Virus record (IMG/VR): IMGVR_UViG_3300030104_002421 | Coordinates: 82,189-146,188 of that record | Reading direction: 5' to 3' (one strand) | DNA from: a virus | Length of the DNA stretch: 64,000 nt | Part shown: piece after piece, positions 6,149 to 61,637 of the stretch | How positions within the stretch are numbered: the stretch's first letter is position 1 | How the letters are laid out: every line of letters begins with the position of its first letter | The notes under the pieces: generated by a model | The model's input: only the letters and a program-made list of their open reading frames with translations | Databases searched by the model: none | What the model was told of the DNA's origin: nothing | Position numbers and translations under genes: made by a program

Positions 6149-7221
6149 CCAGGAGTTTTTCAGATTTTTCAGCAGGTTTACTTGCATTGAAAGAGAGTTT
6201 AGAAAAGAAAGAAGACATAGCAAATGTCGCTGGTGATGGTGCGGTTTCTATGCCACCCACAGCAAGAAAACCTATCAAAAGAAAGAAGATGACATTTAAT
6301 GTCTCTCCAGAAGTTTTTGCCGCTTTTAAAAAAGGTAAATCAAAGTTTGAAAAATGGTCAAAATATTTAGACCTAACTGACGAAAGTCAAGCAGCGATAT
6401 ATTCCTGGGCAATCAAAAATCATACAGGTGTTATTATACTACAAAATTCTGTAACAGGAGAAATAAGAGCGATTAGACATAATAGAATGGGTGGTGGACA
6501 ATGGCACAAATTATCCAGAGGTTTAAAAACAGAAGCAAGTGAATTACCAAAAGAAGTTTTAGATGACGCTGAAGATATAGTAAAAGATTTAAAATCTAAA
6601 AAAGCAGACTTTGTAAAAAGATATGGCAAAGACGCTAAGAAAGTTATGTATGCTACAGCAATGAAACAAGCAAAAGCAAAACATGGCATAGAGGGTAAAG
6701 AATTTGGTTCTATTATCAAACAAATTAAAGATAGTATAGATAACATTGGTGTTAAAAAAGAAAGTATTAATACACAAGCAGAAAAACAATTGTATGAAAC
6801 ACCAGCAAAACCACACGAAAACAATATAACAGTTTTACGAAATATAGTAAAAGAAAATGTTACAAAGAAAGTAATTTTTGAAAAAGCAGGAACTATGAGG
6901 GTTGATCCTGAAACTGCTAAAACATTATTATCCGTATATGATGAATTAGATGAAGCATTAAAGAGTAAGTTTCAAAAGATGTTAAACTTTAATCAAATGG
7001 GTCTTAAATCATTAAGAAACATGGCATACGAAATCGCAACATACGGTGAACCTCAAGGTCTAGCAAGACCTATTGCGAGTATAGGTAATATGAAATCACC
7101 AAGAAGTCGTCCAGCATACGCTTTAAATGCAAAAAAGAAGAAAGAAATTAAATCTACGGCAAAAGGTCCTGGTCTAGGTACATCTATGCCTATGATGAAT
7201 ATAACAGCGAGGAAGAAATAA
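6145..7221 (+). CDS. Basic structural-module protein, unknown function
   Basis: 358 residues, Lys-rich throughout. Residues about 45-125 look globular and include NHTGVIILQNSVTGEIRAI and a GGGQWHKLSRG loop; the middle (about 130-220) is a Lys/Ala/Asp-rich helical linker; the C-terminus is basic. It begins in ATGA overlap with the previous gene and ends overlapping the lipase start by one base. No catalytic signature is visible. Confidence 0.5.
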   Translation: MTRSFSDFSAGLLALKESLEKKEDIANVAGDGAVSMPPTARKPIKRKKMTFNVSPEVFAAFKKGKSKFEKWSKYLDLTDESQAAIYSWAIKNHTGVIILQNSVTGEIRAIRHNRMGGGQWHKLSRGLKTEASELPKEVLDDAEDIVKDLKSKKADFVKRYGKDAKKVMYATAMKQAKAKHGIEGKEFGSIIKQIKDSIDNIGVKKESINTQAEKQLYETPAKPHENNITVLRNIVKENVTKKVIFEKAGTMRVDPETAKTLLSVYDELDEALKSKFQKMLNFNQMGLKSLRNMAYEIATYGEPQGLARPIASIGNMKSPRSRPAYALNAKKKKEIKSTAKGPGLGTSMPMMNITARKK

Positions 7222-7970
7222 TGTTAGGACTACAACCAGAATTTTCGTGGAAGAACTCCACAATACTTGCCAAAGCGTCAGCAACGGCATACAATAATTT
7301 AAGTGCTTTTCAAAAGCAATTTGATCCAGAAGCAGTAATGTTTGATAAAGACGGTACACAGGTGTTTTGTTGGAAAGATGATAAACATGCTTGTGTTGCA
7401 TTTAGAGGTACAGAACCAAATCAATGGTCTGATATTAAAGCAGACTTAAAAATAAGACGAGTAAAATGTCCTACAGGATTTGTACATAGAGGATTTAGAG
7501 ACGCTTTAGACGAAGTATGGACAGATGTAGTGGCATGGATATCTAAACAAAAATGTCAACATGTATTCTTTACTGGTCATAGTTTAGGTGGTGCATTAGC
7601 AACACTAGCTGCAAGTAGATGGAACACAGTAACAACACATCTATACACATATGGATCACCAAGAGTAGGTGGTAAGAAGTTTATACAATCATTTCTTACA
7701 AGAAACAGATATAGATTTAGAAACAATAACGATATAGTAACAAGAGTACCATTTGAGATATTTGGATATAAACATGTATCAGGTGAAGGTGGTAACTTTA
7801 TCTATTTTGATATTGATGGTAATGTTGCAACAAAATTTAGTAGATGGTATATGTTTAAACAATGGTGGAAAGGTACATTTAGAGGTGTATCACATTTAAA
7901 AGTAGATGGTTTTAGCGACCATTCTATGACTAACTACTACGAATATTGTAAAAGAGAAATGGATAAGTAA
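7221..7970 (+). CDS. Class-3 (fungal-type) lipase/esterase
   Basis: An alpha/beta-hydrolase of 249 residues. The nucleophile elbow FTGHSLGGALATLAA lies near residues 116-130, with Ser in GHSLG. The acid is probably the Asp of RNNNDIVTRVPF (about residue 173) and the base the His of SDHSMTNYYEY (about 235), the usual order for lipase_3 proteins (PF01764-type), so the catalytic triad looks complete. AFRGTEPNQWSD near residue 60 also fits the family. There is no signal peptide. It is embedded in a structural/lysis module, so it may act on host lipids at lysis or as a virion enzyme; this role is inferred. Confidence 0.85.
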   Translation: MLGLQPEFSWKNSTILAKASATAYNNLSAFQKQFDPEAVMFDKDGTQVFCWKDDKHACVAFRGTEPNQWSDIKADLKIRRVKCPTGFVHRGFRDALDEVWTDVVAWISKQKCQHVFFTGHSLGGALATLAASRWNTVTTHLYTYGSPRVGGKKFIQSFLTRNRYRFRNNNDIVTRVPFEIFGYKHVSGEGGNFIYFDIDGNVATKFSRWYMFKQWWKGTFRGVSHLKVDGFSDHSMTNYYEYCKREMDK

Positions 7971-21471: not shown

Positions 21472-22218
21472 ATGAACGAAATACAAACTATATCTAACTG
21501 GATAAAAGACTACGCCACTAAAGCCAAAAAAACAACATTAGTTGTAGGTGTATCAGGTGGTATAGATAGTGCCGTGGTATCAACCTTATGTGCAAAAACA
21601 GGACTTAAAACTATACCTATGGTCATGTCAATTGGCAACAAAGACATATTAGGTTTAGAACATGCCTGGTGGTTAGATGAAAACTTTCCTAACATTAGTA
21701 GAAGAATTATCAACATGGAAAAAATATTCCATGAATTTGAAAAAGCAAGTATGTATATTAATGCTGCCAATAAATTGGCATTTGCCAATACAAAAGCAAG
21801 ATTACGAATGACTATGTTATATCAAATGGCACAATCTGAAAATGGTCTTGTGGTGGGTACAGGAAATAAAGTAGAAGATTTTGGTGTAGGTTTCTATACA
21901 AAATATGGTGATGGTGGTGTAGATATATCACCTATTGCAGATTTCTATAAGAGTGAAGTCAGACAAATGGGTGTAGAGTTAGGTGTATTAGAAAAGATTA
22001 TAGAAGCAAAACCTACAGATGGTTTATGGGAAGATGGTAGAACAGACGAAGACCAATTAGGTATGAGTTATGAAGAAATAGAAAAGGCAATGAAACAAGA
22101 TGAAACCCATACAATCGTTACAATAAAAAAAGATATTAATAAGTTGAATACATATAGAGAAATAAGAAAAGCGAATTTACATAAAATGGTACCAATACCG
22201 GTATACAGGAGGAAATAA
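21472..22218 (+). CDS. nadE: NAD synthetase-like N-type ATP pyrophosphatase
   Basis: 248 residues, started at ATG 21472 behind GGAG; a TTG four codons earlier is the alternative. LVVGVSGGIDSAVVSTLCAK carries the SGGxDS P-loop of ATP pyrophosphatases, and VVGTGNKVEDFGVGFYTKYG plus DISPIADFYKSEVRQMGVEL are the NH3-dependent NAD+ synthetase signatures. The C-terminal DGLWEDGRTDEDQLGMSYEE also fits NadE. It would amidate deamido-NAD, or act on a related carboxylate, in a phage-directed NAD or modification pathway. Confidence 0.85.
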   Translation: MNEIQTISNWIKDYATKAKKTTLVVGVSGGIDSAVVSTLCAKTGLKTIPMVMSIGNKDILGLEHAWWLDENFPNISRRIINMEKIFHEFEKASMYINAANKLAFANTKARLRMTMLYQMAQSENGLVVGTGNKVEDFGVGFYTKYGDGGVDISPIADFYKSEVRQMGVELGVLEKIIEAKPTDGLWEDGRTDEDQLGMSYEEIEKAMKQDETHTIVTIKKDINKLNTYREIRKANLHKMVPIPVYRRK

Positions 22219-23381
22219 TGAAAGTAGGATTTATAGGTTTAGGTAAACTTGGCAGAGACGCTGCTGAAGTGTTAGCTGAAAAACATGATGTTGTAGGATA
22301 TGATTTAGATATTTTAAATATAGATACAACAGTTACCAAAGCAACACAATTAAAATATGCTTGTGAAAATAGAGACATAGTTTTAGTTGCAGTACAAACG
22401 CCACATCATCCTGATTATGATGGTAAAGAACCTACAAGTCATTTGCCACCTAAAGATTTTGATTATTCACATATTACTAAAGCAGTAAAAGATGTAGATG
22501 ATTGTATAGATGAAGGTACATTGATTGCAGTTATATCAACAATGTTACCTGGTACAGTAAGACGAGAAATAGAACCATTAGTTAAAAGAGGAAAGTTTAT
22601 ATACAATCCTTATTTGATTGCTCAAGGTACTGTAAAGTGGGACATGAAAAATCCTGAAATGATTATGATAGGTACAGAAAATGGTTATAAGAGTAGAGAA
22701 GTAAAAGCATTAAGAGACTTATACGACCCTATACTAGAAAAAGAAAATACAAGATATGAAATAGGTACATGGGAAGAAATAGAAGCATTGAAAGTTTTTT
22801 ATAATACTTTTATTTCTACTAAACTTGCATTGGTTAATATGATACAAGATGTGGCAGAAAATATAGGTCATATGAATGTAGATGTGGTAACAAATGCATT
22901 AAAAGATAGTACACAAAGAATTATGGGACCTAGTTATATGAAAGCAGGTTTTGGTGATGGTGGTGGTTGCCATCCTAGAGATAATATTGCTTTACGAGTA
23001 TTGAACGAAAGATATAAATTAGGTTATGATTTGTTTGATAGTATTATGAAAGCAAGAGAAGAACAAGCGGCAAACATGGCAAGATATTGTTTGAAGTATC
23101 AAATGCCTGTAGTAATTTTAGGTAAAGCATTTAAACCTGGTATTGACCAAACAGCAGGAAGTCCTTCTATGTTAGTTGGTTGGTATATTGAAAAACTAGG
23201 TAGTCAAAAAGTTTACTATGATAAAATACCAGACGGCAAAGCATATACTATTCTTATACACGATAAAGGTTTAATACCTGAAACATGGGATAATCCTGGT
23301 AGTTGTATTATAGACCCTTATAGAGAATTAGGACCTGTAAAAAATCATACGGTGAAACACTATGGTAACACAAACAGATAG
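22218..23381 (+). CDS. UDP-glucose/GDP-mannose dehydrogenase-like
   Basis: 387 residues with the order of UDP-sugar dehydrogenases: an N-terminal Rossmann GxGxxG (VGFIGLGKLGRDAAEVLAE), ISTMLPGTVRREIEP, central EALKVFYNTFISTKLALVN with the Lys-Asn pair of the active-site helix, GFGDGGGCHPRDNIAL holding the catalytic Cys in the usual GxGxGGxC(x)PxD context, and KAFKPGIDQTAGSPS in the C-terminal domain. It would make a uronic acid sugar nucleotide, feeding the neighbouring transferases. It overlaps NadE by one base. Confidence 0.85.
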   Translation: MKVGFIGLGKLGRDAAEVLAEKHDVVGYDLDILNIDTTVTKATQLKYACENRDIVLVAVQTPHHPDYDGKEPTSHLPPKDFDYSHITKAVKDVDDCIDEGTLIAVISTMLPGTVRREIEPLVKRGKFIYNPYLIAQGTVKWDMKNPEMIMIGTENGYKSREVKALRDLYDPILEKENTRYEIGTWEEIEALKVFYNTFISTKLALVNMIQDVAENIGHMNVDVVTNALKDSTQRIMGPSYMKAGFGDGGGCHPRDNIALRVLNERYKLGYDLFDSIMKAREEQAANMARYCLKYQMPVVILGKAFKPGIDQTAGSPSMLVGWYIEKLGSQKVYYDKIPDGKAYTILIHDKGLIPETWDNPGSCIIDPYRELGPVKNHTVKHYGNTNR

Positions 23382-34477: not shown

Positions 34478-34506
34478 TTGACTTTTTCACTATATTGTGA
34501 TATAAT
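34478..34506 (+). promoter_or_regulatory. Sigma70-like promoter
   Basis: AGGC-TTGACT, 17-bp spacer, TATAAT, matching the promoter at 10617 closely (TTGTGA before the -10 in both). Leader of about 24 nt with AAAGGA ahead of the nuclease ATG 34537. Confidence 0.75.
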
Positions 34507-34536: not shown

Positions 34537-35226
34537 ATGTTTAATCACATTACCCCAACAGGTGATATGCCACCTTTAAAAGCAAAAAATGTATCAGGTA
34601 AAAGATTTTATGAACACCTGGAAACCAAAGAAGTATATCCTTCTATCACAAGCGTTTTATCTATTAGACAAAAACAAGGTCTTATAGAGTGGCGTAAAAA
34701 AGTTGGTGATGAAGTTGCCAACCATGTTATGATAACTGCTGCCAATAGAGGTACAGCAGTACACAATATGGTAGAGGATTATCTAAACAATCTTAACATA
34801 GATGAAAACGAGAAGTATAAAAAACAATTTCTACCTAGAATGATGTTTCAGGTTCTAAAACCTGAATTACAAAATATAAATAATATTAGGCTACAAGAAG
34901 CCCAAATGTACTCAACAGATTACACCGTGGCAGGTCGTTGCGATTGTATTGGTGAGTATGAAGGCGTACTATCAATTATAGATTTTAAAACATCTAAAGG
35001 AGATAAAAAGGAAGACTGGATAGAAAACTATTTTATTCAAGGTAGTGCTTATGCAGAAATGTACGAAGAACACTTTGGCGAACCTGTAGAACAGGTAGTA
35101 ATATTAGTTGTAACGGAAGAAGGAACAACACAGGTATTTAAGAAAAGTAAAAAAGACTATCTACCTCAATTAAAAGACGCTATAACAGACTTTTACAAAT
35201 GGGTAGAAAAAAATGAAAAAAATTAA
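34537..35226 (+). CDS. PD-(D/E)XK exonuclease-like protein
   Basis: 229 residues. YTVAGRCDCIGEYEGVLSII then DFKTSKGDKKEDWIENYFIQ contains the D...DxK catalytic set of RecB/Cas4-type nucleases, followed by QGSAYAEMYEEHFG. T4-like marine phages carry such a nuclease. It overlaps the next gene by 14 nt. Confidence 0.75.
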   Translation: MFNHITPTGDMPPLKAKNVSGKRFYEHLETKEVYPSITSVLSIRQKQGLIEWRKKVGDEVANHVMITAANRGTAVHNMVEDYLNNLNIDENEKYKKQFLPRMMFQVLKPELQNINNIRLQEAQMYSTDYTVAGRCDCIGEYEGVLSIIDFKTSKGDKKEDWIENYFIQGSAYAEMYEEHFGEPVEQVVILVVTEEGTTQVFKKSKKDYLPQLKDAITDFYKWVEKNEKN

Positions 35227-35611
35227 AGAACTATCATTGTTAGTATTTTTACTAACATTTATTATAATTGTTTCAGTATGGACAACATCAGCAGCTGCTG
35301 AAGGACCAAAGTATGATTTATCAAAAATGAAGCAGAGACAAGTACCTGCTTATTGTGGAGATACTGGGTTTATGTTTGAAACATCATTAGAATTATTTAA
35401 TGAATTACCAATTGCAGGTGCTGAAGTTAGAACGGCAGGAATGCCAGATGCTCCAATCATAGGTATCATTACTCTAACTTATAACGAAGATAGAGGTTCA
35501 GGTACTGTAATGATGACTATACCAGCAATAGGCGAGACATGTGTTCTAGCATATGGTATGAATTGGCAATTTTATAACGAAATTCATGTTGAAGGTAATG
35601 AGAGTAAATAG
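35213..35611 (+). CDS. Exported protein, unknown function
   Basis: 132 residues with a signal peptide (LSLLVFLLTFIIIVSVWTTS then AAAEG; cleavage after the AAA region). The mature domain looks beta-sandwich-like with two Cys (YCGDTGFMFE and GETCVLAYG). Its last codons overlap the 5' edge of the tmRNA acceptor piece. Confidence 0.5.
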   Translation: MKKIKELSLLVFLLTFIIIVSVWTTSAAAEGPKYDLSKMKQRQVPAYCGDTGFMFETSLELFNELPIAGAEVRTAGMPDAPIIGIITLTYNEDRGSGTVMMTIPAIGETCVLAYGMNWQFYNEIHVEGNESK

Positions 35612-35806
35612 TATGGACGGCGGGGCAGTACCGCCCACCTCCACCACAGACACGGGGGTGAAATAGGTTCGACAGCTATTAGAAATCGTGCTGGAGTGGA
35701 TAGTCCAAAGACTTAAAACTAAAATAAAAGCAAACTTTAATGAGTATGCATTAGCAGCGTAGGCTGTTAGGGGTTTGCCTTGTACCTTGCAACAGAAACA
35801 AGGCAC
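35607..35806 (+). ncRNA. ssrA: Circularly permuted two-piece-type tmRNA
   Basis: The tmRNA 3' half comes first. The acceptor piece has GGAC then T stem GGCGG/CCGCC (35619-35623 with 35631-35635, 7-nt loop), CACCTCC (35636-35642), A, CCA to 35646. A 7-nt spacer follows. The coding piece starts GGGGGTG (35654-35660), pairing with CACCTCC in a 7-bp acceptor stem. GGTTCGAC resembles the conserved D-loop region. A helix GCTATT/AATAGT (35675-35680 with 35607-35612) fits P2. The tag frame runs from GCA 35730 to TAG 35762, giving ANFNEYALAA. Downstream, GCCTTGT/ACAAGGC plus CTGTT/AACAG form a pseudoknot. The true 5' end is uncertain. It would rescue stalled ribosomes. Confidence 0.9.
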
Positions 35807-35959: not shown

Positions 35960-36312
35960 AACAAAGTGATGAGTTTTATCGTCTATTAGATGAAATGAAA
36001 AGAGTCCATAATCTTAAAAGGCATGATTATGCAAGTAAAGAGGACATCTTTCAAAATTTTAGAACAAGTGAACTAGGTGGTATTCCTGCCTGGAAAAGTG
36101 TAGCAATTAGAATTGGTGATAAGTTTAGTCGTTTAATGTCCTTTGTAAAACAAGGTGAATTGCATGTAGAAGATGAAACAATTGGTGATACTCTTATTGA
36201 CATGGCTAACTATGCTTTAATTTGTCATATATTATTTTATGAACAAAAACTTAAAAACCTAAGCGCTGACGCTGATGAACTGACGGAGCGTTTACTGGAG
36301 AAACATAGATGA
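35956..36312 (+). CDS. DUF1599/MazG-like nucleotide-modification-associated protein
   Basis: 118 residues. HDYASKEDIFQNFRTSELGG then AIRIGDKFSRLMSFVKQGEL and DETIGDTLIDMANYALICHI match the all-helical DUF1599 (nucleotide modification associated domain 1) pattern, related to MazG/dUTPase-like pyrophosphohydrolases, with conserved Glu and Asp residues. It may hydrolyse or sense nucleotides. Part of the gp33-gp59 operon. Confidence 0.6.
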   Translation: MKQSDEFYRLLDEMKRVHNLKRHDYASKEDIFQNFRTSELGGIPAWKSVAIRIGDKFSRLMSFVKQGELHVEDETIGDTLIDMANYALICHILFYEQKLKNLSADADELTERLLEKHR

Positions 36313-36521
36313 CACCTAAACAATTCGCTCTTGTAATTGAAAAGAGGGCAAGTACAAAGAAGATAACACACATGGATGCTATACTAAACTATTGTGAAGA
36401 AAAACAAATAGAACCAGACCAGATTACACATTTAATAAATAGAAACCTGAAAGAAAAGATTAAGGCTAATGCACAGGACTTAAATTTTCTTCCAAAAACG
36501 GCAGCATTGCCAGGAGTATAA
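36309..36521 (+). CDS. 33: gp33-like late transcription co-activator
   Basis: 70 residues. KITHMDAILNYCEEKQIEPD then QITHLINRNLKEKIKANAQD and LNFLPKTAALPGV matches the pattern I know for cyanophage/T4-like gp33 (a helical core with C-terminal beta-clamp-type end). In T4 gp33 links RNA polymerase to the sliding clamp so late promoters (TATAAATA) fire. Several such octamers occur in the window. gp55 is not in this window. It overlaps its neighbours by 4 nt upstream. Confidence 0.7.
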   Translation: MTPKQFALVIEKRASTKKITHMDAILNYCEEKQIEPDQITHLINRNLKEKIKANAQDLNFLPKTAALPGV

Positions 36522-42819: not shown

Positions 42820-43638
42820 ATGGGTATATACGAAGTTATAAAAGTGTTAGGTTTGATGTGTCTATTGACAGGTTGTGCCTCTAATAGTCAAAACATAAAA
42901 AAAGGTGCAGAACCTTTTATTGAAGGTTCAACAACAATAGAACTATTAAGAGAGATACCTGATTTAGATAATCAACCTGTAATTACAATTGCTGTTTATG
43001 AATTTACTGACCAAACAGGACAAAGAAAACCTAACCCTAACTTTTCTCAATTGTCAACGGCAGTTACACAAGGTCCTGATGTTTGGGTGATATCTGCTTT
43101 AAAAGCAGTTAGTGAAGGTGATTGGTTTAAAGTAGTAGAAAGAAAAGGTTTAAACAACCTAATTAAAGAGAGACAATTAATTAGGTCAACAAGAGAATTA
43201 TATGATGGAGAGAGTGAGGCAAAAAATCAATTGAAACCTATGTTATTTGCAGGTCTCATAATAGAGGGTGGCATAGTAGGTTATGATAGCAATGTTGTAA
43301 GTGGTGGTGTTGGTGCAAGATATTTTGGTATAGGCATGAGTGAAATGTACCGTACAGACCAAGTAACAGTTTCATTAAGAGTTGTTGCTGTTCAGACTGG
43401 AGAAATATTACTTACAGTCCATGCAACAAAGACAATCGCAAGTTATAATAAGGGCGGTGATGTATTTAGATTTTTAGATATGAGTACAAAGGCGTTAGAA
43501 TTAGAAACTGGTGCAGCTACAAACGAACCAGTTAGTTATGCGATAAGAACAGCGATAGAGTATGCAGTATTACAGATGGTTTATGAAGGCGTTAACAAAG
43601 ACCTTTGGAAAATGAAAGGCGTAGAAGGAGTAAGATGA
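42820..43638 (+). CDS. csgG: Curli secretion channel CsgG-like lipoprotein
   Basis: 272 residues. The signal EVIKVLGLMCLLTGCASNSQ has lipobox (LTGC). Matches to the CsgG domain include VITIAVYEFTDQTGQRKPNP, RKGLNNLIKERQLIRSTREL, GLIIEGGIVGYDSNVVSGGV and ARYFGIGMSEMYRTDQVTVS, with VVAVQTGEILLTVHATKTIA following. CsgG forms the nonameric outer-membrane pore exporting curlin subunits. It sits 6 nt after csgF and overlaps the curlin-like gene by 4 nt. Confidence 0.9.
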   Translation: MGIYEVIKVLGLMCLLTGCASNSQNIKKGAEPFIEGSTTIELLREIPDLDNQPVITIAVYEFTDQTGQRKPNPNFSQLSTAVTQGPDVWVISALKAVSEGDWFKVVERKGLNNLIKERQLIRSTRELYDGESEAKNQLKPMLFAGLIIEGGIVGYDSNVVSGGVGARYFGIGMSEMYRTDQVTVSLRVVAVQTGEILLTVHATKTIASYNKGGDVFRFLDMSTKALELETGAATNEPVSYAIRTAIEYAVLQMVYEGVNKDLWKMKGVEGVR

Positions 43639-44321
43639 GAAATGTAACAAAAATAGTTATGTTTTTGATGATGTTTACATTGCCAGTAATGGCGAATGAT
43701 ATTTATGTAACACAATCCGGTGCTACATTAACTTTAGATGTATTACAAGACGGACAAAACAACACAATAGGTAACAGTACCACAGCTTCAACAGTAACAG
43801 GTGCTACATCTAACTTTAACATTGACCAAATTGGTAATTCAAATGTGTTGACATTTGATATTAATGGTGCAAATTACACAGGTGTTTTTAGTACGACTGG
43901 TAATAGTAACAATATAGATTTCAATTGTGATAGCGGAGGAACAGTTAGTTCATGTGCCACAGTTACAGCGTCAATTATTTGGGTAGGTTCTTCAAATGAT
44001 TTAGATATTGATGTTGGTGAAACAGCAGACGCTACGGGTGCTAATATTACGATAGCAGGTGCTTCTGGTAGTGATAGTAATGTTATTGCTGGTACAGTAG
44101 ATGGTACAAGTGTTATCTTTACTTTATCAGTAAATGGTGATACAAATAATTTCTTGGTCGACATAGACGGAGATGGGGATAGTGCAGGACATACCTACAT
44201 ACACACACATACAGGTTCAATTGCTGATGTTGACATAACACAATCAGGTATATATGACAACATGATTACTTTAACAACAAGTGGCGACAACCACAATATT
44301 GATATTATACAAAGAGACTAA
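43635..44321 (+). CDS. Curlin-like repeat protein (CsgA/B-like)
   Basis: 228 residues from ATG 43635 (AAGGAG upstream). A signal peptide (VTKIVMFLMMFTLPVMA, cleaved before NDIYV) is followed by repeated Gln/Asn-rich units such as IDQIGNSNVLTFDIN, GNSNNIDFNC, NNIDIIQRD-like and DITQSGIYDNMITLTTSG, the curlin beta-strand rule (QxGxxN). Two Cys occur (NCDSGGTVSSC). The protein should be secreted by CsgG and assemble as amyloid-like fibres. Confidence 0.8.
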   Translation: MRNVTKIVMFLMMFTLPVMANDIYVTQSGATLTLDVLQDGQNNTIGNSTTASTVTGATSNFNIDQIGNSNVLTFDINGANYTGVFSTTGNSNNIDFNCDSGGTVSSCATVTASIIWVGSSNDLDIDVGETADATGANITIAGASGSDSNVIAGTVDGTSVIFTLSVNGDTNNFLVDIDGDGDSAGHTYIHTHTGSIADVDITQSGIYDNMITLTTSGDNHNIDIIQRD

Positions 44322-44322
44322 T

Positions 44323-44433
44323 ATGGATTGGATTTTAATTTTATTATATACAGGAGTGATTACATATGCGGCTTACAAATTTTATAATTGGGTGCATAGT
44401 CTTAACCCTTACGATTTTACTCCCAAAAAGTAG
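44323..44433 (+). CDS. 36-residue membrane micropeptide overlapping fecR-like gene
   Basis: MDWILILLYTGVITYAAYKF then YNWVHSLNPYDFTPKK. One transmembrane helix and a basic tail. It overlaps the FecR-like gene by 68 nt in another frame, and has no strong ribosome site, so it may be an accidental ORF. Confidence 0.3.
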   Translation: MDWILILLYTGVITYAAYKFYNWVHSLNPYDFTPKK

Positions 44434-45490
44434 TTTTGCTAATATTGGCAATGTTACTCAATTAGAGGGTAACGGTGTCATTGATAGACAAGACGGTGAT
44501 GAGGGTATTGTAATTGAAAAAGAATTAGATATATTTTCATACGATACTGTAAAGACAGGTAATGGTAAAGTTGGGATAGAGTTTATAGACAATACAAGAG
44601 TTGACATCACCCAACATTCAAAACTTATCATAGATGAGTTTGTTTATGACCCAAACAGTAAGACCGGTAAACTATCATTGAAAGCAAGTCTTGGCACAGT
44701 AAGATATGCCTCAGGACAAATTGCAAAAAATTCAGCAACAAATGTACAGATAACGACACCAACGGCAACGATTGGTGTTCGTGGTACAGATTTTACTATG
44801 ACAATAGATGAAGTAGGTTCATCTACAATTATATTGTTACCAAGTTGCGATACAAATGGTAATTGTTTTGTAGGTGAGATAAGTGTTGAAAGCGACGCTG
44901 GTCAAGTTATACTTAATCAGGCATTTCAAGCTACAGTAGTTGATACAGTTGCAAGTAGACCATTGACGCCTGTAATTTTAAATTTAGATGAAGATATGAT
45001 TAATAACTTAATGATTGTATCTAAACCTGCTGAAATAGAAAGTATGCAAAATGAAGAAGGACTTAATGAAGTTGCAGACGCTTTAGATATTGACTTTTTA
45101 CAATTTGATGATTTAGAAGTTGATTATTTGGCAGAGGATGAAAGTCAATTTAAAACAGGACTTGATATTGATTTTTTAGAACAAAATTTTTTGGCTGATA
45201 TCTTGGCACAGATTAACAAAGAGTTAGCAAAAGCAATGAGGTCAGAATTTGATAAACAAAAATCAGCAGATGGTATATTACTAGGTAAGAATCCTGAAAC
45301 TGGTGTCATAATATTAGATGAAGACCCAGAGTGGGTATGGATAAGAGAAGACGCTAGTGGTAGTTATATAGAACTACGATTAGATAAAGAGTATGGATAT
45401 ATTTTAAATATTGTGCAAAGTGAATTTGAACAATATGATTTTCAGTTAGGAGGGCAAGACAATGCTATTACGATACAGCAAATTAATTAG
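44366..45490 (+). CDS. FecR-domain exported protein with curlin-type C-terminus
   Basis: 374 residues with a signal peptide (FIIGCIVLTLTILLPKSSFA). Mature residues begin NIGNVTQLEGNGVIDRQDGD and include DTVKTGNGKVGIEFIDNTRV, HSKLIIDEFVYDPNSKTGKL and TPTATIGVRGTDFTMTIDEV, the FecR beta-sandwich with its GVRGTxF motif. A helical acidic stretch (about 215-305) and a final GGQDNAITIQQIN with the curlin Gln/Asn rule follow. It may chaperone or anchor curlin at the surface. Overlaps the next gene by 29 nt. Confidence 0.75.
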   Translation: MRLTNFIIGCIVLTLTILLPKSSFANIGNVTQLEGNGVIDRQDGDEGIVIEKELDIFSYDTVKTGNGKVGIEFIDNTRVDITQHSKLIIDEFVYDPNSKTGKLSLKASLGTVRYASGQIAKNSATNVQITTPTATIGVRGTDFTMTIDEVGSSTIILLPSCDTNGNCFVGEISVESDAGQVILNQAFQATVVDTVASRPLTPVILNLDEDMINNLMIVSKPAEIESMQNEEGLNEVADALDIDFLQFDDLEVDYLAEDESQFKTGLDIDFLEQNFLADILAQINKELAKAMRSEFDKQKSADGILLGKNPETGVIILDEDPEWVWIREDASGSYIELRLDKEYGYILNIVQSEFEQYDFQLGGQDNAITIQQIN

Positions 45491-46910
45491 TTTCTTATTT
45501 GTATTGTTTTGTTGCACATCAGCATTTGCTGAGACGGCACATATAAACTATACTGATACTAATATGTACAATAAGATTAAAGGTGAACTAGAAACATTAG
45601 GGTTTACAGTTACAGGTACAAATAGTGGGTCAGTAAGTTTAAGTGATTTTACTGGTAAAGATTTACATATCAATGTTGCAGGTAATAATAACTGTGGCAG
45701 TACATGTAAGACGGCATATGAAACTTATATAGGTGCAGGTGGTAATGTTATTATTGCAGGTAATGGTGACCGTGATGGCAATAGAACACTTAGCATTGAA
45801 AGTCTTGTAGAAAGTAAATTAAGTGTAGGTACTATTACAATATATAATGGTGAAGCGAACTATCTATCACATCCTCATGGTACTCAATATTCAAGTACAA
45901 ATACTTATTGGGTTACAAGAAATGTTTTTAGAATGGACTCTGGTGGTACGGCATTAGCAGATAATTCAGGAGCAAACCTCAGTACATGGAAAAACTGGGC
46001 AGTATATGGTTATGGTAGTAATGGTGGTAAATTAATTATTACACTTGACCAAGCACAATTTAATCATAGTGGTAATAATAATAGTGCCACTTGGAATACA
46101 AGATTGTATACCTTTTTAGAAGAAACACTTGAAGAAGAAGGTATATTATCAACCACAGTAAATATAACAGCAACAACAAGTCAATCATCTACAATAACAA
46201 GTGATAAAGCACAAACAGGTAATGGTCTTAAAATGACTATTACAGGTGACGGTAATACTTTAAATGTAGAACAAGAAGGTGAGAATAATTTTATAGTAGG
46301 TACAGATTGGTCTAGTAATAGTGCAATCACAGGTGATAATAACACAATCAATATTGACCAAGGTAATGTAACGACAAGTGGTAGTAGTGGCAACAATGGT
46401 CTTGCATTAGATATAACAGGCAGTACAAATACACTTAATATATCACAAGGAGATTATGCTACAGACACAGGCGACCATAGAATATTTTTAGACATTGATG
46501 GTTCTACAAATACACTAACTTTACAACAAAGAAATAATGGTACAACATCAAGTGAGCATTATATGAATTTAGATTTGGATTCAGGTTCAAATGTCATTAC
46601 AATGCAACAATTAGATAATGGTGATAAGATATTGTTTTTAGATATCAACAATAGTAATAATGCAGTAGATGTAAACCAATCAGGTACAGGCGAACACTTT
46701 TTAGACTTAAAGTTAGACACAGGTTCTTATGCACATGATGTTGATATCTCACAGACAGGTTCAGGTGACCATGCGGCTAGAGTGGAATTAGATGGATATT
46801 CCACAGACTTTGATTTAGTACAACAAGGTTCTACAGACCAGGACTACAATGTAAATATGACTTGTGGTACATCAAGTGGTTGTACCCTATCAACAACACA
46901 AGGTAACTAA
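45462..46910 (+). CDS. Large curlin-repeat exported protein
   Basis: 482 residues. Signal peptide (LISFLFVLFCCTSAFA, cleaved before ETAHI). The N-terminal half (about 20-220) has alternating strand/helix pieces (YNKIKGELETLGFTVTGTNS, then GGNVIIAGNGDRDGNRTLSI) suggestive of a Rossmann-like ectodomain; the C-terminal half holds many curlin-type repeats, such as GDGNTLNVEQEGENNFIVGT, TGDNNTINIDQG, GSTNTLNISQGDYATD, GSTNTLTLQQRN, SGSNVITMQQLD and NSNNAVDVNQSGTGEHFLDL. It ends with a Cys pair. Probably an adhesin or minor fibre subunit. Confidence 0.75.
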   Translation: MLLRYSKLISFLFVLFCCTSAFAETAHINYTDTNMYNKIKGELETLGFTVTGTNSGSVSLSDFTGKDLHINVAGNNNCGSTCKTAYETYIGAGGNVIIAGNGDRDGNRTLSIESLVESKLSVGTITIYNGEANYLSHPHGTQYSSTNTYWVTRNVFRMDSGGTALADNSGANLSTWKNWAVYGYGSNGGKLIITLDQAQFNHSGNNNSATWNTRLYTFLEETLEEEGILSTTVNITATTSQSSTITSDKAQTGNGLKMTITGDGNTLNVEQEGENNFIVGTDWSSNSAITGDNNTINIDQGNVTTSGSSGNNGLALDITGSTNTLNISQGDYATDTGDHRIFLDIDGSTNTLTLQQRNNGTTSSEHYMNLDLDSGSNVITMQQLDNGDKILFLDINNSNNAVDVNQSGTGEHFLDLKLDTGSYAHDVDISQTGSGDHAARVELDGYSTDFDLVQQGSTDQDYNVNMTCGTSSGCTLSTTQGN

Positions 46911-46913
46911 ATA
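46906..46913 (+). promoter_or_regulatory. Late-type octamer (ACTAAATA), leaderless spacing (CHASE2-cyclase)
   Basis: ACTAAATA then five bases (GTAAT) then the cyclase ATG. One mismatch to TATAAATA at positions 1-2; the spacing matches the other leaderless late sites. Confidence 0.5.
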
Positions 46914-46918
46914 GTAAT

Positions 46919-48760
46919 ATGAAGTATGTTACCCATTGGGCAACGGCATTTATTACTGTCATGTTTTTGACTTACATAGGTTTACAAGACCCATGGTTTA
47001 AAGAGTTGTTGCGATTAAAGAGTTTTGACTATGTACTCCAGAATGAGGAGAAGACACCCTCACAAGACATTACCATAATCACTATAGACGAAGAAGCGAT
47101 TGAGAAATACGGTCAATGGCCGTGGAAGCGTGATGTATTGGCACAAATAATCTATGATTTAAGAAACGCACAAACAGGTATTATTGTTATGCCTATTTTG
47201 TTTAGTGAACAAGATAGATTAGGTGGTGATGAGGAGTTTTGTAATGCATTAGGTTATGGTACAGTTATTGCTCAAGTAGGTACGACACAAAAGAATACAA
47301 GTAACGCCGTGCCAAGAGGTGTTGCAAAGATAGGTGACCCTCTAAACTTTTTATATGAGTGGCCGGGCATGGTTGGTCCTGAATTGTTTTTAAGTCAATG
47401 TGCAAATGGTGTAGGTGTTATTAATACAGCACCAGAGATAGATGGTGTTGTAAGACGAGTACCACTATTGATGAAGATTGGTGAGAATGTTTACCCTAAC
47501 ATGGCAATAGAAACAATACGAGTTGCAGTTGGCGATCCTAGTTATCAAGTTAAAGCAGATGATTTTGGTGTGGTTGCAATGAGAGTACCGGCATATGCTA
47601 CAATCAATACAGACGCTAACGCTAGAATATGGGTAAGATGGAATAAAGAGTTTAAAACAATATCAGCAGCGAGTGATGACTTTTCATCAGCCGCAGGTAC
47701 CACAGTAATTATTGCCATGACGGCAGAGGGACTAGGAGGTGTGATTGCAACACCACTAGGCGAACAATATGATTATGTGATAAGTGCCAATACATTACAG
47801 ACTATACTAGATGGTGAGACAATAAGTCGCTATGATAGTTTAATAGAATTAGCTGTTGCATTTTTCCTAGGATGTGTTATAGTATTAGTATGTAGATTTG
47901 CACCATACTGGATAATTGCTCTGGCATTGATAGGTTTATTCATTGGCGTGGGTAATTATTTCACTATGCTCTACAGTAGCAGCCTGATTTTACTAGATAT
48001 TACTTGGATTTTGCTGACTGCTCTACTAGTAGCATTTCATAGCACATTCCTAAGATTTATACTAGAGTTTAGATTAAAGCAACGCATAAGAAAACAATTT
48101 GAGAAATACCTAGACCCAAGGCAAGTGGCAATATTAGTGAAGCATCCAGAGAAGTTAAAACTAGGCGGCGACAGAAAGGAGATGTCTTTTCTATTCATGG
48201 ATATTGTAGGGTTTACACCTATAAGTGAATACTATAAAAACAATGATGACCCAGAGGGTCTTGTAAATGTAATCAATGACTATCTAAACAGAATGAGTAA
48301 TATAGTATTAAAGAATGGTGGTACAATTGATAAGTACATGGGAGATTGTATCATGGCATTTTGGAATGCACCACTTGATTGTCCTAACCATGCAGAAATG
48401 GCAGTAAAGACAAGTATAGAATGTGCTGAAGAAACAGATAAGATTAAAGCAGAGTTTAAAGAAAAAGGTTTACCAGATATTAACATAGGTTCAGGTGTTA
48501 ATACTGGAACATGTATAGTTGGTAACATGGGTAGTGAAGCAAGATTAGACTATTCAGTTATTGGTGACGCTGTGAACTTGGCTGCACGATTAGAAGCAAC
48601 CACAAGAAACTATAAAGATGAAAATGGAAAAGTTACCCCGACATTGTATTCTAGTTATACTATGGAACAATTAGAGACCATCAAGTCAGTTGAAGTAGAT
48701 AAGATTAAAGTAAAAGGTAAAGACGAATTAATTACCATTTACAAACCAGTTTCTGAATAA
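46919..48760 (+). CDS. CHASE2-domain adenylate/guanylate cyclase
   Basis: 613 residues. An N-terminal membrane helix (about 7-22) leads to a periplasmic CHASE2-like domain (about 30-300; DITIITIDEEAIEKYGQWPW is the usual strand, and PEIDGVVRRVPLLMKIGENV follows). Two to three membrane helices (about 308-385) and a linker precede a class III cyclase domain (about 420-605): MSFLFMDIVGFTPISEYYKN and YMGDCIMAFWNAP carry the two metal Asp, and DYSVIGDAVNLAARLEATTR the transition-state Asn/Arg. It should make cAMP or cGMP in response to an external cue. It is the last gene of the curli operon. Confidence 0.9.
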   Translation: MKYVTHWATAFITVMFLTYIGLQDPWFKELLRLKSFDYVLQNEEKTPSQDITIITIDEEAIEKYGQWPWKRDVLAQIIYDLRNAQTGIIVMPILFSEQDRLGGDEEFCNALGYGTVIAQVGTTQKNTSNAVPRGVAKIGDPLNFLYEWPGMVGPELFLSQCANGVGVINTAPEIDGVVRRVPLLMKIGENVYPNMAIETIRVAVGDPSYQVKADDFGVVAMRVPAYATINTDANARIWVRWNKEFKTISAASDDFSSAAGTTVIIAMTAEGLGGVIATPLGEQYDYVISANTLQTILDGETISRYDSLIELAVAFFLGCVIVLVCRFAPYWIIALALIGLFIGVGNYFTMLYSSSLILLDITWILLTALLVAFHSTFLRFILEFRLKQRIRKQFEKYLDPRQVAILVKHPEKLKLGGDRKEMSFLFMDIVGFTPISEYYKNNDDPEGLVNVINDYLNRMSNIVLKNGGTIDKYMGDCIMAFWNAPLDCPNHAEMAVKTSIECAEETDKIKAEFKEKGLPDINIGSGVNTGTCIVGNMGSEARLDYSVIGDAVNLAARLEATTRNYKDENGKVTPTLYSSYTMEQLETIKSVEVDKIKVKGKDELITIYKPVSE

Positions 48761-48852: not shown

Positions 48853-48942
48853 ATGAAAAATTTAAAAAAAAGAATAAAAGAACAGACGAGAAAAAACTTA
48901 TCAAACCTTATGAGAACACCTAGACTAAAAGTCGTAGGCTAA
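48853..48942 (+). CDS. Small basic peptide between convergent units
   Basis: 29 residues from ATG 48853 behind AAAAGGG (or 48 from ATG 48796), MKNLKKRIKEQTRKNLSNLM then RTPRLKVVG. Strongly basic helix, end overlaps the convergent tape-measure gene by 18 nt. It is uncertain whether it is expressed. Confidence 0.3.
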   Translation: MKNLKKRIKEQTRKNLSNLMRTPRLKVVG

Positions 48943-51090
48943 ATTGTCCATAGTTAAATCAGGAGCAGTAGTGCTTTTTTGAACAGAAAAGGAACTACTG
49001 CTGTTGTTCACTACAGCATTACTAACTGAACTATCACTTACTACTACAGGCGCTTTATTTTGACTTTCAGCATTTAATGTAGTTTGTTCAACCATTGCTT
49101 GACCTAATGCTTGTCTTAATTCCATTATTCTTTGAGTAGCACTTTCAAAATCAATTTCAGGACTTGCAAGACCTAAATACTTTGTATTACCTGTTGGGAA
49201 CCAAGATAAGTCAACAGACCCACCCATAATTGCAGCCTCAATAAGAGGTACACTTTCACCTAAATCTTTAGCAAATTCTTTCATTTTGATTTTACTACCA
49301 TCAAATTTAAGACCAGATATACTGTTTAATGATATAGCAAGTTGGTCTAATGCATTAGCAGCAGTAGTTAATTCAGTAGCATTATCTGCTAAGTCTAACA
49401 TCTCCTGTACTGGACTTTCATTACCAGAGAAGAAGTTAAGTATAGAAGCACCTACACCTGCAAGAGCGTCAACAAATTTAGCACCAGAGAACTTTAACAG
49501 ACCCGCTGATATAGTGCCTAACACACTAGATAATTCTATTGCTTTCTCTTTATTGATGTTTTCATCAGCAGTAATACTTAATAAATCTTTTACATTGTCT
49601 TTGATTGTTTGTGCGAAGTTATCTGTGCCAGAGAATTGTGTTATTGCTTCTGCTAAACCGGCAGCACCCTTACCAACACTAAATGCAAGTAAGCCAGCAC
49701 CAATCCCAGTCATTGTAGCAACAAAAGCTGCAGTATCAACCAGTACGCCTGGCAATGAGGCTATCGTTAATAGTGTTTCAACATTATCTACGATAGATTG
49801 TGCCCATTCTTTATTTGCAAAATTACCACCAGCGTCAACTAATGCAGCTACGGCAGTACCGGCAGAAAATACTGTTAGACCGGCAGCGATAGCTGACATT
49901 GCAATAAAGAATGTACCTCCTTCTATTAGAACATCTCCAAAACCTTCAAATAAATCATTAATACCTAATAGTGTTGAAACATTTTTAACTATTGATGTTG
50001 CCCAATCAGGATTTGCAAAGAGACCACCAGTATCTACAAGTGTTGCAACGGCACTACCTACACCAAATACGGCAAGACCAGCACCTATTGCTGTCATTGC
50101 AACAAAGAATCCTCCACCTTTTGATAAGAACTCCATAGACCCACCGTGGTCATCATTAATACTTAATAATTCTTTTACATTTTTTCTTATGTTAACAGCA
50201 AATTGATTATCACCTTGACTGAACATATCAAATGCTTTTGATACGGCAACACCAGCACTTACAGCGGCAAGACCAAAACCAATTGCTGTCATAGCAATAC
50301 CAAAAGTACCACCTTTTGCTAAGAAGTCCATAGTCCCGCCATGGTCGTCTTCTATTGATAATAATTCTTTTACATTTTTTCTTATGTTGACAGCAAATTC
50401 ACTTTCTTTAGAGAAATGGTCTACAGCAGCTGCGACACCAGCACCAATACTAAATGCGGCTAAACCAAGACCAATACCAGTCATTGCGGCTAAGAATGTT
50501 CCTCCTTCTAAAAAGAACTCTGCTTTACCTCCCATATCGTCAGATATGCCCATTAATTCTTTTACATTGGCACGGATTGCCTTACCGTCCATATCATTTA
50601 ATTCTTTGAGTAAGAATCCTGCACCACCGGCAAGTATACCTGCACCAGCAAGTAATGCACCACCACCTAACATAGCGGCACCGGCACCCATACCTAATTT
50701 ACCAAGTATGCCTGCTAGACCTTTTTTAGTCTCTTTACCAACACCAGCTGCTTCGCCGCCATCACCACCTTTACCACCACCTTTTGCAAGTAGTGATTTT
50801 CTTTCTGCTTCATCAGCAAGTGTTTGTTGTCTATCAGCAGCGGCATTTGCCTGCTCTTCAGCAGACATTATCATCTCCTGGAAGTTATTAGTAAATGAAT
50901 CCCTTATGCCAGATAGACCTTCGTTATTTCTTTTGAATTGTAATGCCAAAGACTGACCAAAAGACCTATTTTGTGTCTTTGCGGTTTCAACAACAGTAGA
51001 AGACAGGTCTTTAGTTTGTGTTTCAATAACCTCACGGTTATCTGCCTTATTTTCCTGTAGTCTAATTATTAAATCTTTAAAATCAGCCAT
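48925..51090 (-). CDS. Tail tape measure-like protein with 65-residue repeats
   Basis: 721 residues on the minus strand. An N-terminal helical region (about 1-100), a Gly/Ala-rich hydrophobic stretch (about 104-165), then six copies of a unit opening NVKELLxIxDDxGG at residues 175, 239, 304, 370, 436 and 499, spaced 63-66 residues, each followed by a hydrophobic helix pair (AAMTGIGLGLAAFSIGAGVA type). Such periodic hydrophobic proteins downstream of tail chaperones are tape measures, setting tail length; T4's gp29 is the functional counterpart. The C-terminus is Ser/Asn-rich. Confidence 0.7.
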   Translation of the reverse strand: MADFKDLIIRLQENKADNREVIETQTKDLSSTVVETAKTQNRSFGQSLALQFKRNNEGLSGIRDSFTNNFQEMIMSAEEQANAAADRQQTLADEAERKSLLAKGGGKGGDGGEAAGVGKETKKGLAGILGKLGMGAGAAMLGGGALLAGAGILAGGAGFLLKELNDMDGKAIRANVKELMGISDDMGGKAEFFLEGGTFLAAMTGIGLGLAAFSIGAGVAAAVDHFSKESEFAVNIRKNVKELLSIEDDHGGTMDFLAKGGTFGIAMTAIGFGLAAVSAGVAVSKAFDMFSQGDNQFAVNIRKNVKELLSINDDHGGSMEFLSKGGGFFVAMTAIGAGLAVFGVGSAVATLVDTGGLFANPDWATSIVKNVSTLLGINDLFEGFGDVLIEGGTFFIAMSAIAAGLTVFSAGTAVAALVDAGGNFANKEWAQSIVDNVETLLTIASLPGVLVDTAAFVATMTGIGAGLLAFSVGKGAAGLAEAITQFSGTDNFAQTIKDNVKDLLSITADENINKEKAIELSSVLGTISAGLLKFSGAKFVDALAGVGASILNFFSGNESPVQEMLDLADNATELTTAANALDQLAISLNSISGLKFDGSKIKMKEFAKDLGESVPLIEAAIMGGSVDLSWFPTGNTKYLGLASPEIDFESATQRIMELRQALGQAMVEQTTLNAESQNKAPVVVSDSSVSNAVVNNSSSSFSVQKSTTAPDLTMDNLAYDF

Positions 51091-59650: not shown

Positions 59651-59744
59651 GCGGTCTTGGTGGAAAAAGGTAGACACGCCTTCTACTACGAATTGAAGGT
59701 GACTGAATAAGTTATTGTAGGATCATACCCTACAGACCGTACCA
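59651..59744 (+). tRNA. Class II tRNA-like RNA with an 11-nt anticodon loop
   Basis: Acceptor GCGGTCT/AGACCGT, D stem GTG/CAC with a GG-containing loop, anticodon-position stem CCTTC/GAAGG, an 11-nt loop TACTACGAATT where 7 is normal, a class II variable arm TGACT/AGTTA, T stem GTAGG/CCTAC with loop ATCATAC, then A and CCA. The D arm (GGTAGACAC) looks tRNA-Leu-like. T-loop positions 54 and 58 are A and T rather than T and A. A shifted 7-nt loop CTACGAA (anticodon ACG) is possible with a T-T mismatch. It may be a degenerate tRNA or a tRNA-mimic. Confidence 0.7.
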
Positions 59745-60212: not shown

Positions 60213-61637
60213 ATGAAACTACTAGGTTTACGCCTATGTGACCATGATAGTAACATTTCATATTGGGATGGTACGAAGGTACACTATATCAAATCTGAAC
60301 GAATACATGGTATTAAACATCATGGTTATAACAGTAATGTGGACGAATGGGTTACGGATATTGAGAAACATATCTCAATTGACTGGCGTAACCTAGACGG
60401 TATTGGTTTATGTGGCGATAGTGAACGCTTTGGCGTCTCTGGTGATTGTAACTGGAAAAAAATCGACCCTCTCTATAAGGATATCGAAACGGTCTTCGTT
60501 GACCATCACTTTGCCCATGCGAAATCGTATTGGATGTTAGAGGATAAAAAAATAGATGTAGTGATAGATGGTTATGGTGATTTTGGGCGTAGTTATAGTG
60601 TTTACGAAGGCAATAAACGAATAGACCAAGGTAACAGTAGAACATTAGGTAGATGTTTAGATGAATTAGGGTTTAAGTTAGGGTTTAAAGGTCATATGTT
60701 AGATATGGCAGGTAAAGTTATGGCGTATGCCAAGACAGGTGTACCAAGTGAGGTACCCAATGTCGCCTTTGATGATATACAAAAACTCTTTGAAGACCAG
60801 ACTTTTCGTGGTGTGAATGATGTAGCGACAGCTCATGTTGCAAGTGAGAACGCCTTTTTATCTTATCTTACACAATTTGGTAAAGATATTTCATATTCAG
60901 GTGGTTGTGGTCAAAATTGTGTTATCAATGGCAAACTCAAATCAAAAATTCCTGGTTTACAAATAGGACCACATTGTCCTGATGACGGTCTTTCTCTTGG
61001 TGCTTTAAAAGTTATATCAGACCACATGAATAATAAAAATAAAGGATTCCCTGATGAAGAAATGAGTATAGAAAATTTTCCATTTATACAGGCAGATGAG
61101 GCACCTAAAACTACACCATCTATATCAACAATTCGTAAAGTATGTAATCTGTTAAAGAATGACAAAGTGGTTGCATGGTATCAAGGTCATGGTGAAATAG
61201 GACCAAGAGCGTTAGGTAATCGTAGTATATTGTATAGTGCAAGAGGGAGTAAAGAAAGAATAAACGAAATCAAACAAAGAGAAAACTTTAGACCTTTTGG
61301 TGCAAGTATATTAAATGGTTTTCAGGAAAAATATTTTCATTGTGATTTTGAAAGTCCATATATGTTGTATGTGGTACAAAACAAGACAAGAAATTTTCCT
61401 GCAATTACACATAACGATAACTCTACACGAATACATACTGTTAAGTCAAGTCAAAATGCCGTCTTTCATACCTTGTTAACAGAATATGTTATTACAACAG
61501 GTGTACCTATGTTATTAAATACAAGTTTAAATATAAATGGCAAACCTATTGCCTCAACAATCGCTGAGGCGGAACGCCTATATAATACAACAAGCATTGA
61601 CGCTTTGTGTGTTGGAGATAGATTATGGATAAAATAA
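60213..61637 (+). CDS. NodU/TobZ-type carbamoyltransferase
   Basis: 474 residues. The ASKHA-like N-terminal domain has VFVDHHFAHAKSYWMLEDKK (HHxxHA metal motif), VVIDGYGDFGRSYSVYEGNK and YSGGCGQNCVINGKL (GGxxxNxxxN). The C-terminal YrdC-like part has WYQGHGEIGPRALGNRSILY (GRxExGPRALGxRS) and LLNTSLNINGKPIASTIAEA. NodU proteins carbamoylate sugars or antibiotics using carbamoyl phosphate and ATP. Here the acceptor could be a phage glycan. It ends overlapping the next gene by 13 nt. Confidence 0.9.
   Translation: MKLLGLRLCDHDSNISYWDGTKVHYIKSERIHGIKHHGYNSNVDEWVTDIEKHISIDWRNLDGIGLCGDSERFGVSGDCNWKKIDPLYKDIETVFVDHHFAHAKSYWMLEDKKIDVVIDGYGDFGRSYSVYEGNKRIDQGNSRTLGRCLDELGFKLGFKGHMLDMAGKVMAYAKTGVPSEVPNVAFDDIQKLFEDQTFRGVNDVATAHVASENAFLSYLTQFGKDISYSGGCGQNCVINGKLKSKIPGLQIGPHCPDDGLSLGALKVISDHMNNKNKGFPDEEMSIENFPFIQADEAPKTTPSISTIRKVCNLLKNDKVVAWYQGHGEIGPRALGNRSILYSARGSKERINEIKQRENFRPFGASILNGFQEKYFHCDFESPYMLYVVQNKTRNFPAITHNDNSTRIHTVKSSQNAVFHTLLTEYVITTGVPMLLNTSLNINGKPIASTIAEAERLYNTTSIDALCVGDRLWIK

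Follow-up and report, generated by a model that had tools for sequence, protein, structure and literature searches.

A complete gene for a circularly permuted tmRNA is present at positions 35606-35806 (+ strand) of the window, as we call the whole 64-kb stretch of viral DNA analysed. Two covariance models, ARAGORN, covariation in relatives, and synteny with the annotated SsrA of the phages Mosig and Melnitz all speak for a phage-encoded tmRNA of the two-piece type known from alphaproteobacteria. Such split tmRNAs had already been reported for this phage group in 2022 (PMC9004378), and the present gene is a further example. Our results confirm a little-studied published point, that marine myophages of SAR11-type hosts carry a split tmRNA of their own, and extend it by an identical tag in Pelagibacter phage HTVC008M, a comparison with SAR11 tags, structural covariation, and deletion and empty-site variants. 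The gene looks like a functional ssrA, and very probably serves supplementary trans-translation together with the SmpB, the alanyl-tRNA synthetase (AlaRS) and the proteases of the host.

Identity and parts of the tmRNA gene

Searching the whole window with Rfam covariance models gave a match of 98.4 bits to tmRNA_permuted (RF04321; cut-off 47, E 6.5e-18) and one of 74.7 bits to alpha_tmRNA (RF01849; cut-off 50, E 1.8e-18). The original prediction, made from the letters of the DNA, had claimed a permuted phage tmRNA with the tag ANFNEYALAA and had named alpha_tmRNA as a check. Both the gene and its tag were called again, independently, by ARAGORN. Across the 146-kb virus record this is the only tmRNA match.

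The acceptor half is located 5' of the coding half, with a short segment in between, which is the permuted order. The acceptor, or 3' tRNA-like, piece (35606-35646, +) was delimited by the RF04321 and RF01849 alignments, ARAGORN and covariation, and comprises one strand of a P2-like helix, the T arm, the acceptor strand, A73 and CCA. Its T stem is GGCGG/CCGCC (35619-35623/35631-35635, +), followed by the acceptor 3' strand CACCTCC (35636-35642, +), A73 (35643, +) and an encoded CCA (35644-35646, +). At its 5' end, this piece shares nucleotides with the final codons of the open reading frame before it (stop codon at 35609-35611). A spacer of 7 nt, CAGACAC (35647-35653, +), is presumably cut out by RNase processing. 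The coding piece begins with the 5' tRNA-like domain (35654-35682, +), which includes the D-loop region and is delineated by the covariance models, ARAGORN, the cofold and covariation. Here, GGGGGTG (35654-35660, +) pairs with CACCTCC at 7/7 positions, one of them a wobble; this arrangement, with the A, the CCA and the 7 nt in between, had been predicted with correct positions throughout. GCTATT (35675-35680, +) forms P2 with AATAGT (35607-35612, +). The sole wobble of the acceptor stem is its third pair, G3-U70, a known identity element for alanyl-tRNA synthetase. All determinants for alanine charging are present: the acceptor stem of 7 bp, its G3-U70 pair, A73 and CCA.

Further downstream, the cofold model places a small hairpin, AGTC-CAAA-GACT (35702-35713, +), 5' of the tag at the PK1 position. 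The tag frame called by ARAGORN (35730-35762, +) reads GCA AAC TTT AAT GAG TAT GCA TTA GCA GCG TAG, from the resume codon GCA through ANFNEYALAA to the stop codon TAG. It is followed by a 3' H-type pseudoknot (35770-35805, +), recognized by compensated changes in viral relatives. Stem one pairs GGGGT (35770-35774, +) with ACCTT (35784-35788, +), and stem two pairs TGCCTTGT (35776-35783, +) with ACAAGGCA (35798-35805, +). The T stem, the D-loop-like region and the downstream pseudoknot each lie where the original prediction had put them.

Acceptor pairing by itself is unconvincing and was dropped as evidence, because 16 places on both strands of the window, the tmRNA included, have NCCA, and a 7-bp match within 50 nt in which the third pair is G-U. 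For the tRNA-like part, a cofold energy of -30.6 (shuffles -22.8 with an sd of 3.2, best shuffle -33.6) is suggestive, not decisive, and we therefore relied on the covariance models and on covariation. The scores of the models lie far above chance and decide the matter, and the architecture as a whole, with its covariation, is convincing where the acceptor pairing is not. A reading of the T-arm hairpin as a minus-strand terminator was rejected as a by-product of the T stem.

All 12 base pairs of the T and acceptor stems are kept in each of 24 distinct viral sequences (100% of cells), compared to 84.7% in shuffles (random re-dealing) and 48-63% in slid structures. Five of these 12 tRNA-like pairs changed on both sides, with the letters of the acceptor stem partly fixed by our search patterns and the T stem free of that. 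In the contigs retrieved by tag (L121-L151), compensated changes occur in the acceptor too. Both stems of the 3' pseudoknot covary in viral relatives, for example from GGGGT/ACCTT to GAGT/ACTT in stem one, and from TGCCTTGT/ACAAGGCA to TGTGGTGT/ACACCACG in stem two. G3-U70 was found in 114 of 114 viral and 49 of 49 SAR11 tmRNAs, although the acceptor letters in this count were again partly set by the search patterns. The compensatory evolution across diverse viral contigs, together with the shared locus, indicates long selection.

Locus and relatives

The virus is an HTVC008M-related myophage of SAR11-type bacteria. Its record is a contig of 146,188 bases with T4-like genes (gp59, gp32, baseplate and tail proteins). 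By the exonuclease adjacent to the tmRNA (77% identity), Pelagibacter phage HTVC008M is the closest named relative. The left neighbours of the tmRNA are PhoH, a glycosyl hydrolase, a PD-(D/E)XK exonuclease (34537-35226, +) and an ORF of 132 aa (35213-35611, +), which has a hydrophobic N terminus and overlaps the acceptor piece with its 3' end. A family search with this ORF gave no match. To the right, an ORF of 70 aa (36309-36521, +) occupies the place of the late-transcription coactivator of the gp33 type, an assignment based on position and on DNA similarity to the late promoter factor of HTVC008M. The tmRNA is located between the exonuclease, a conserved left neighbour, and the gp33-type gene in the window, HTVC008M, Mosig and Melnitz; in the cyanophage S-ShM2 the exonuclease leads directly into gp33, without a tmRNA. 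A consensus scan found a promoter-like TTGACT-N17-TATAAT (11/12, extended -10) at 34478-34506 (+), a candidate start for a transcript of exonuclease, ORF and tmRNA, in a region where promoter-like sites are no commoner than in shuffles.

Other parts of the window hold a CsgG-type curli pore gene (42820-43638), then an ORF with a FecR domain (44366-45490), and, at 46919-48760, a 613-aa protein with CHASE2 and guanylate/adenylate cyclase domains, assigned to a PHROG of unknown function. A second-messenger cyclase next to a phage curli-pore module (42820-48760) looks unusual. On the minus strand, a 721-aa ORF (48925-51090) had no Pfam or PHROG match. Sugar-modifying genes, a nodulation-type carbamoyltransferase and a UDP-glucose dehydrogenase, occur at 60213-61637 and 22218-23381. 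The tRNA-Arg(acg) called by ARAGORN at 59651-59744, with an odd length of 94 nt and no Rfam tRNA match, is likely a false positive.

HTVC008M (KC465899), isolated on Pelagibacter ubique HTCC1062, has a permuted tmRNA at the same locus and with the same tag, ANFNEYALAA (RF04321, 90.6 bits), which is not annotated in its record. It was the only credible match in a distant search, and megablast against phage records gave no match. Its tmRNA is ~84% identical to that of the window, over the 3' part only, and its spacer is 49 nt long with a hairpin, as opposed to 7 nt in the window. Since an isolate carries the same tag, infections of HTCC1062 by HTVC008M allow a direct test of expression, of cleavage into two pieces and of tagging.

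Mosig EXVC030M and Melnitz EXVC044M have an annotated SsrA of the two-piece permuted alphaproteobacterial type at the syntenic locus, with the tags GEDNFALAA and ANDNYVPVDYALAA instead of ANFNEYALAA. Melnitz differs also by a spacer of 142 nt and by a glutamine riboswitch just 3' of the tmRNA; a search for such a riboswitch in the window found none. The spacer between the two Melnitz halves (contig L030, within 7183-7635) has a short ATG-started frame. The two-piece tmRNA of Melnitz was described by Buchholz et al. 2022, who placed its ssrA with alphaproteobacteria and proposed as roles the upkeep of hijacked machinery or the recycling of host proteins (PMC9004378). Phage genomes yielded 53 two-piece tmRNA structures in the same study, of which 50 came from marine or aquatic samples, and 17 permuted tmRNAs were found in a set of 47 contigs from this phage group (PMC9004378).

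The window copy has the gene order and two-piece design of the alphaproteobacterial permuted tmRNA (RF01849, RF04321) and of SAR11 ssrA. With both, the phage gene also has the acceptor and T-stem features, G3-U70 and the ALAA tag end in common. Spacer lengths are 7-142 nt in the viral relatives, compared to 11-17 nt in SAR11 ssrA. Ribosome-rescue RNAs are likewise encoded by mycobacteriophages (Bxz1, Wildcat and others) and by Bacillus phage G (PMC4131195). Unlike the phage in the window, these infect actinobacteria and Bacillus. Their tmRNAs are not known to be permuted.

Proposed function and alternatives

SAR11 genomes were picked by family membership and by a 16S probe site (which gave G277 and G365) that we take, after Morris et al., to mark SAR11. 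The sampled genomes have a permuted ssrA of their own (80 of 99 genomes with a match), so that the need for a phage copy is not obvious. SmpB was searched for in the 146-kb phage record and is absent, and it was found in nine of the ten SAR11-type genomes tested. We therefore rejected a phage-supplied SmpB, and the partner must be that of the host.

The course of events that we infer runs from transcription and processing, through charging, tagging and proteolysis, to a benefit for the phage. The tmRNA and the exonuclease gene before it probably form one transcription unit. Two cuts in the precursor by host RNase P and 3'-processing enzymes, at 35654 and after the CCA at 35646, would release an acceptor piece (~40-60 nt) and a coding piece (~150 nt), joined by the acceptor stem and P2. 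The host AlaRS would charge the molecule via G3-U70, and host SmpB and EF-Tu would bring it to ribosomes stalled on broken mRNAs. There, ANFNEYALAA would be added, and its ALAA end would direct the nascent protein to host proteases of the ClpXP type. In this way, the phage may boost the trans-translation capacity of its host during infection, when mRNA breakage is likely high.

The gene is not essential, as indicated by relatives that lack it or part of it. Five sibling contigs (L019-L022 and L027; exonuclease 93% identical) cleanly lack a tmRNA, and these being fragments, the absence applies to this site only. There, the upstream frame ends, and in two of them (L020 and L022) the ribosome site of the next gene comes directly after. 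Loss in the siblings is the simpler reading, because the gene occurs at the same site in HTVC008M, Mosig and Melnitz. Contig L006 (IMGVR_UViG_3300030060_003043) differs from the window by scattered SNPs only over ~14.8 kb, except for a 46-bp deletion confined to the tmRNA (window 35702-35747; reverse complement of L006 around 7050-7142). Lost with it are the hairpin at the PK1 position, the resume codon and tag codons one to six, so that at most ALAA is left. Seen in this single contig, the deletion may be either an assembly error or a natural allele, defective or with a minimal tag. The deletion variant and the empty-site siblings are ready comparisons for asking whether ribosome rescue by an RNA of its own is of benefit to a phage.

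Both the clean absence and a deletion in an otherwise near-identical contig would suit a host-derived passenger, non-functional or dispensable, which is decaying in this phage population. We consider this quite unlikely, as all determinants are intact in the window copy, the locus is the same in HTVC008M, Mosig and Melnitz, and compensatory evolution extends over diverse viral contigs. What L006 retains, a tRNA-like domain without the resume codon and six tag codons, is also what one might expect of a decoy or competitor, titrating SmpB, AlaRS or ribosomes from the host ssrA, so that the phage controls the choice of proteins for tagging and its timing, or shields its own proteins. The mycobacteriophage DS6A offers a precedent, with a tmRNA that consists of the tRNA-like domain only and strongly inhibits tmRNA, perhaps by SmpB titration (PMC4131195; PMC11915505). 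The RNAs of DS6A and of the window are alike in providing a phage tRNA-like domain potentially able to bind SmpB, but DS6A has no tag frame, and the intact tag of the window copy rules out that it belongs to this decoy class. A complete tag frame, mostly with an ALAA or AMAA end, is kept in the window copy and in 114 parsed viral relatives, which a pure decoy would not need, and the variants look more like losses than like a conserved form. A decoy role is thus very unlikely.

The tag itself could have another purpose, if ANFNEY in front of ALAA alters the choice of adaptor or protease compared to host tags and thereby the fate of proteins tagged during infection. A comparison with the host tag had been suggested in the original prediction. 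The 49 parsed SAR11 ssrA tags have nine residues (ANESYALAA, ANDKFALAA, ANNKFALAA, ANESYAIAA, ANEQFALAA and few others), as against ten in the phage tag, and ANFNEYALAA is none of them (0/49). It was found again in HTVC008M and in contigs L049, L060, L077 and L082, which were retrieved by acceptor pattern and not selected by tag, while its recurrence overall comes partly from one search that used this tag. No mention of ANFNEYALAA was found in a full-text literature search. Retargeting of degradation is nevertheless the least probable of the explanations considered here. The C-terminal (Y/F)ALAA, which is dominant in protease recognition, is common to phage and hosts, other viral tmRNAs have exactly the SAR11 tag ANESYALAA (seven contigs), and tag drift accounts for the difference equally well. 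Supplementary trans-translation with host partners is the function that we favour.

Origin of the phage tmRNA

A tree calculated without the tag joined the window and 65 of the 67 distinct phage rows in one group (SH-aLRT 98), based on 127 columns only and with two long-branched phage rows falling elsewhere. The group also takes in one MAG row, and sits beside or within SAR11. A first tree, which included the tag and placed the phages apart from all cellular ssrA, was set aside for a possible bias from tag length or retrieval pattern. A single old capture of the tmRNA from a SAR11-like host would be the favoured origin, not a proven one, because the alignment is short and two phage rows stray. 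It is in line with the position among alphaproteobacteria that Buchholz et al. gave to Melnitz ssrA (PMC9004378). A more far-reaching reading, in which one such capture founded a long-lived viral tmRNA lineage with virus-specific tags and spacers, serving dedicated rescue and an altered protein fate, and gained and lost among siblings, is unlikely as a whole.

Extra or phage-like permuted tmRNAs were also seen in two genome bins, with L251 and L252 in genome G470, and L156 in G005. Possibly, these come from prophages or from phage DNA that contaminates the bins.
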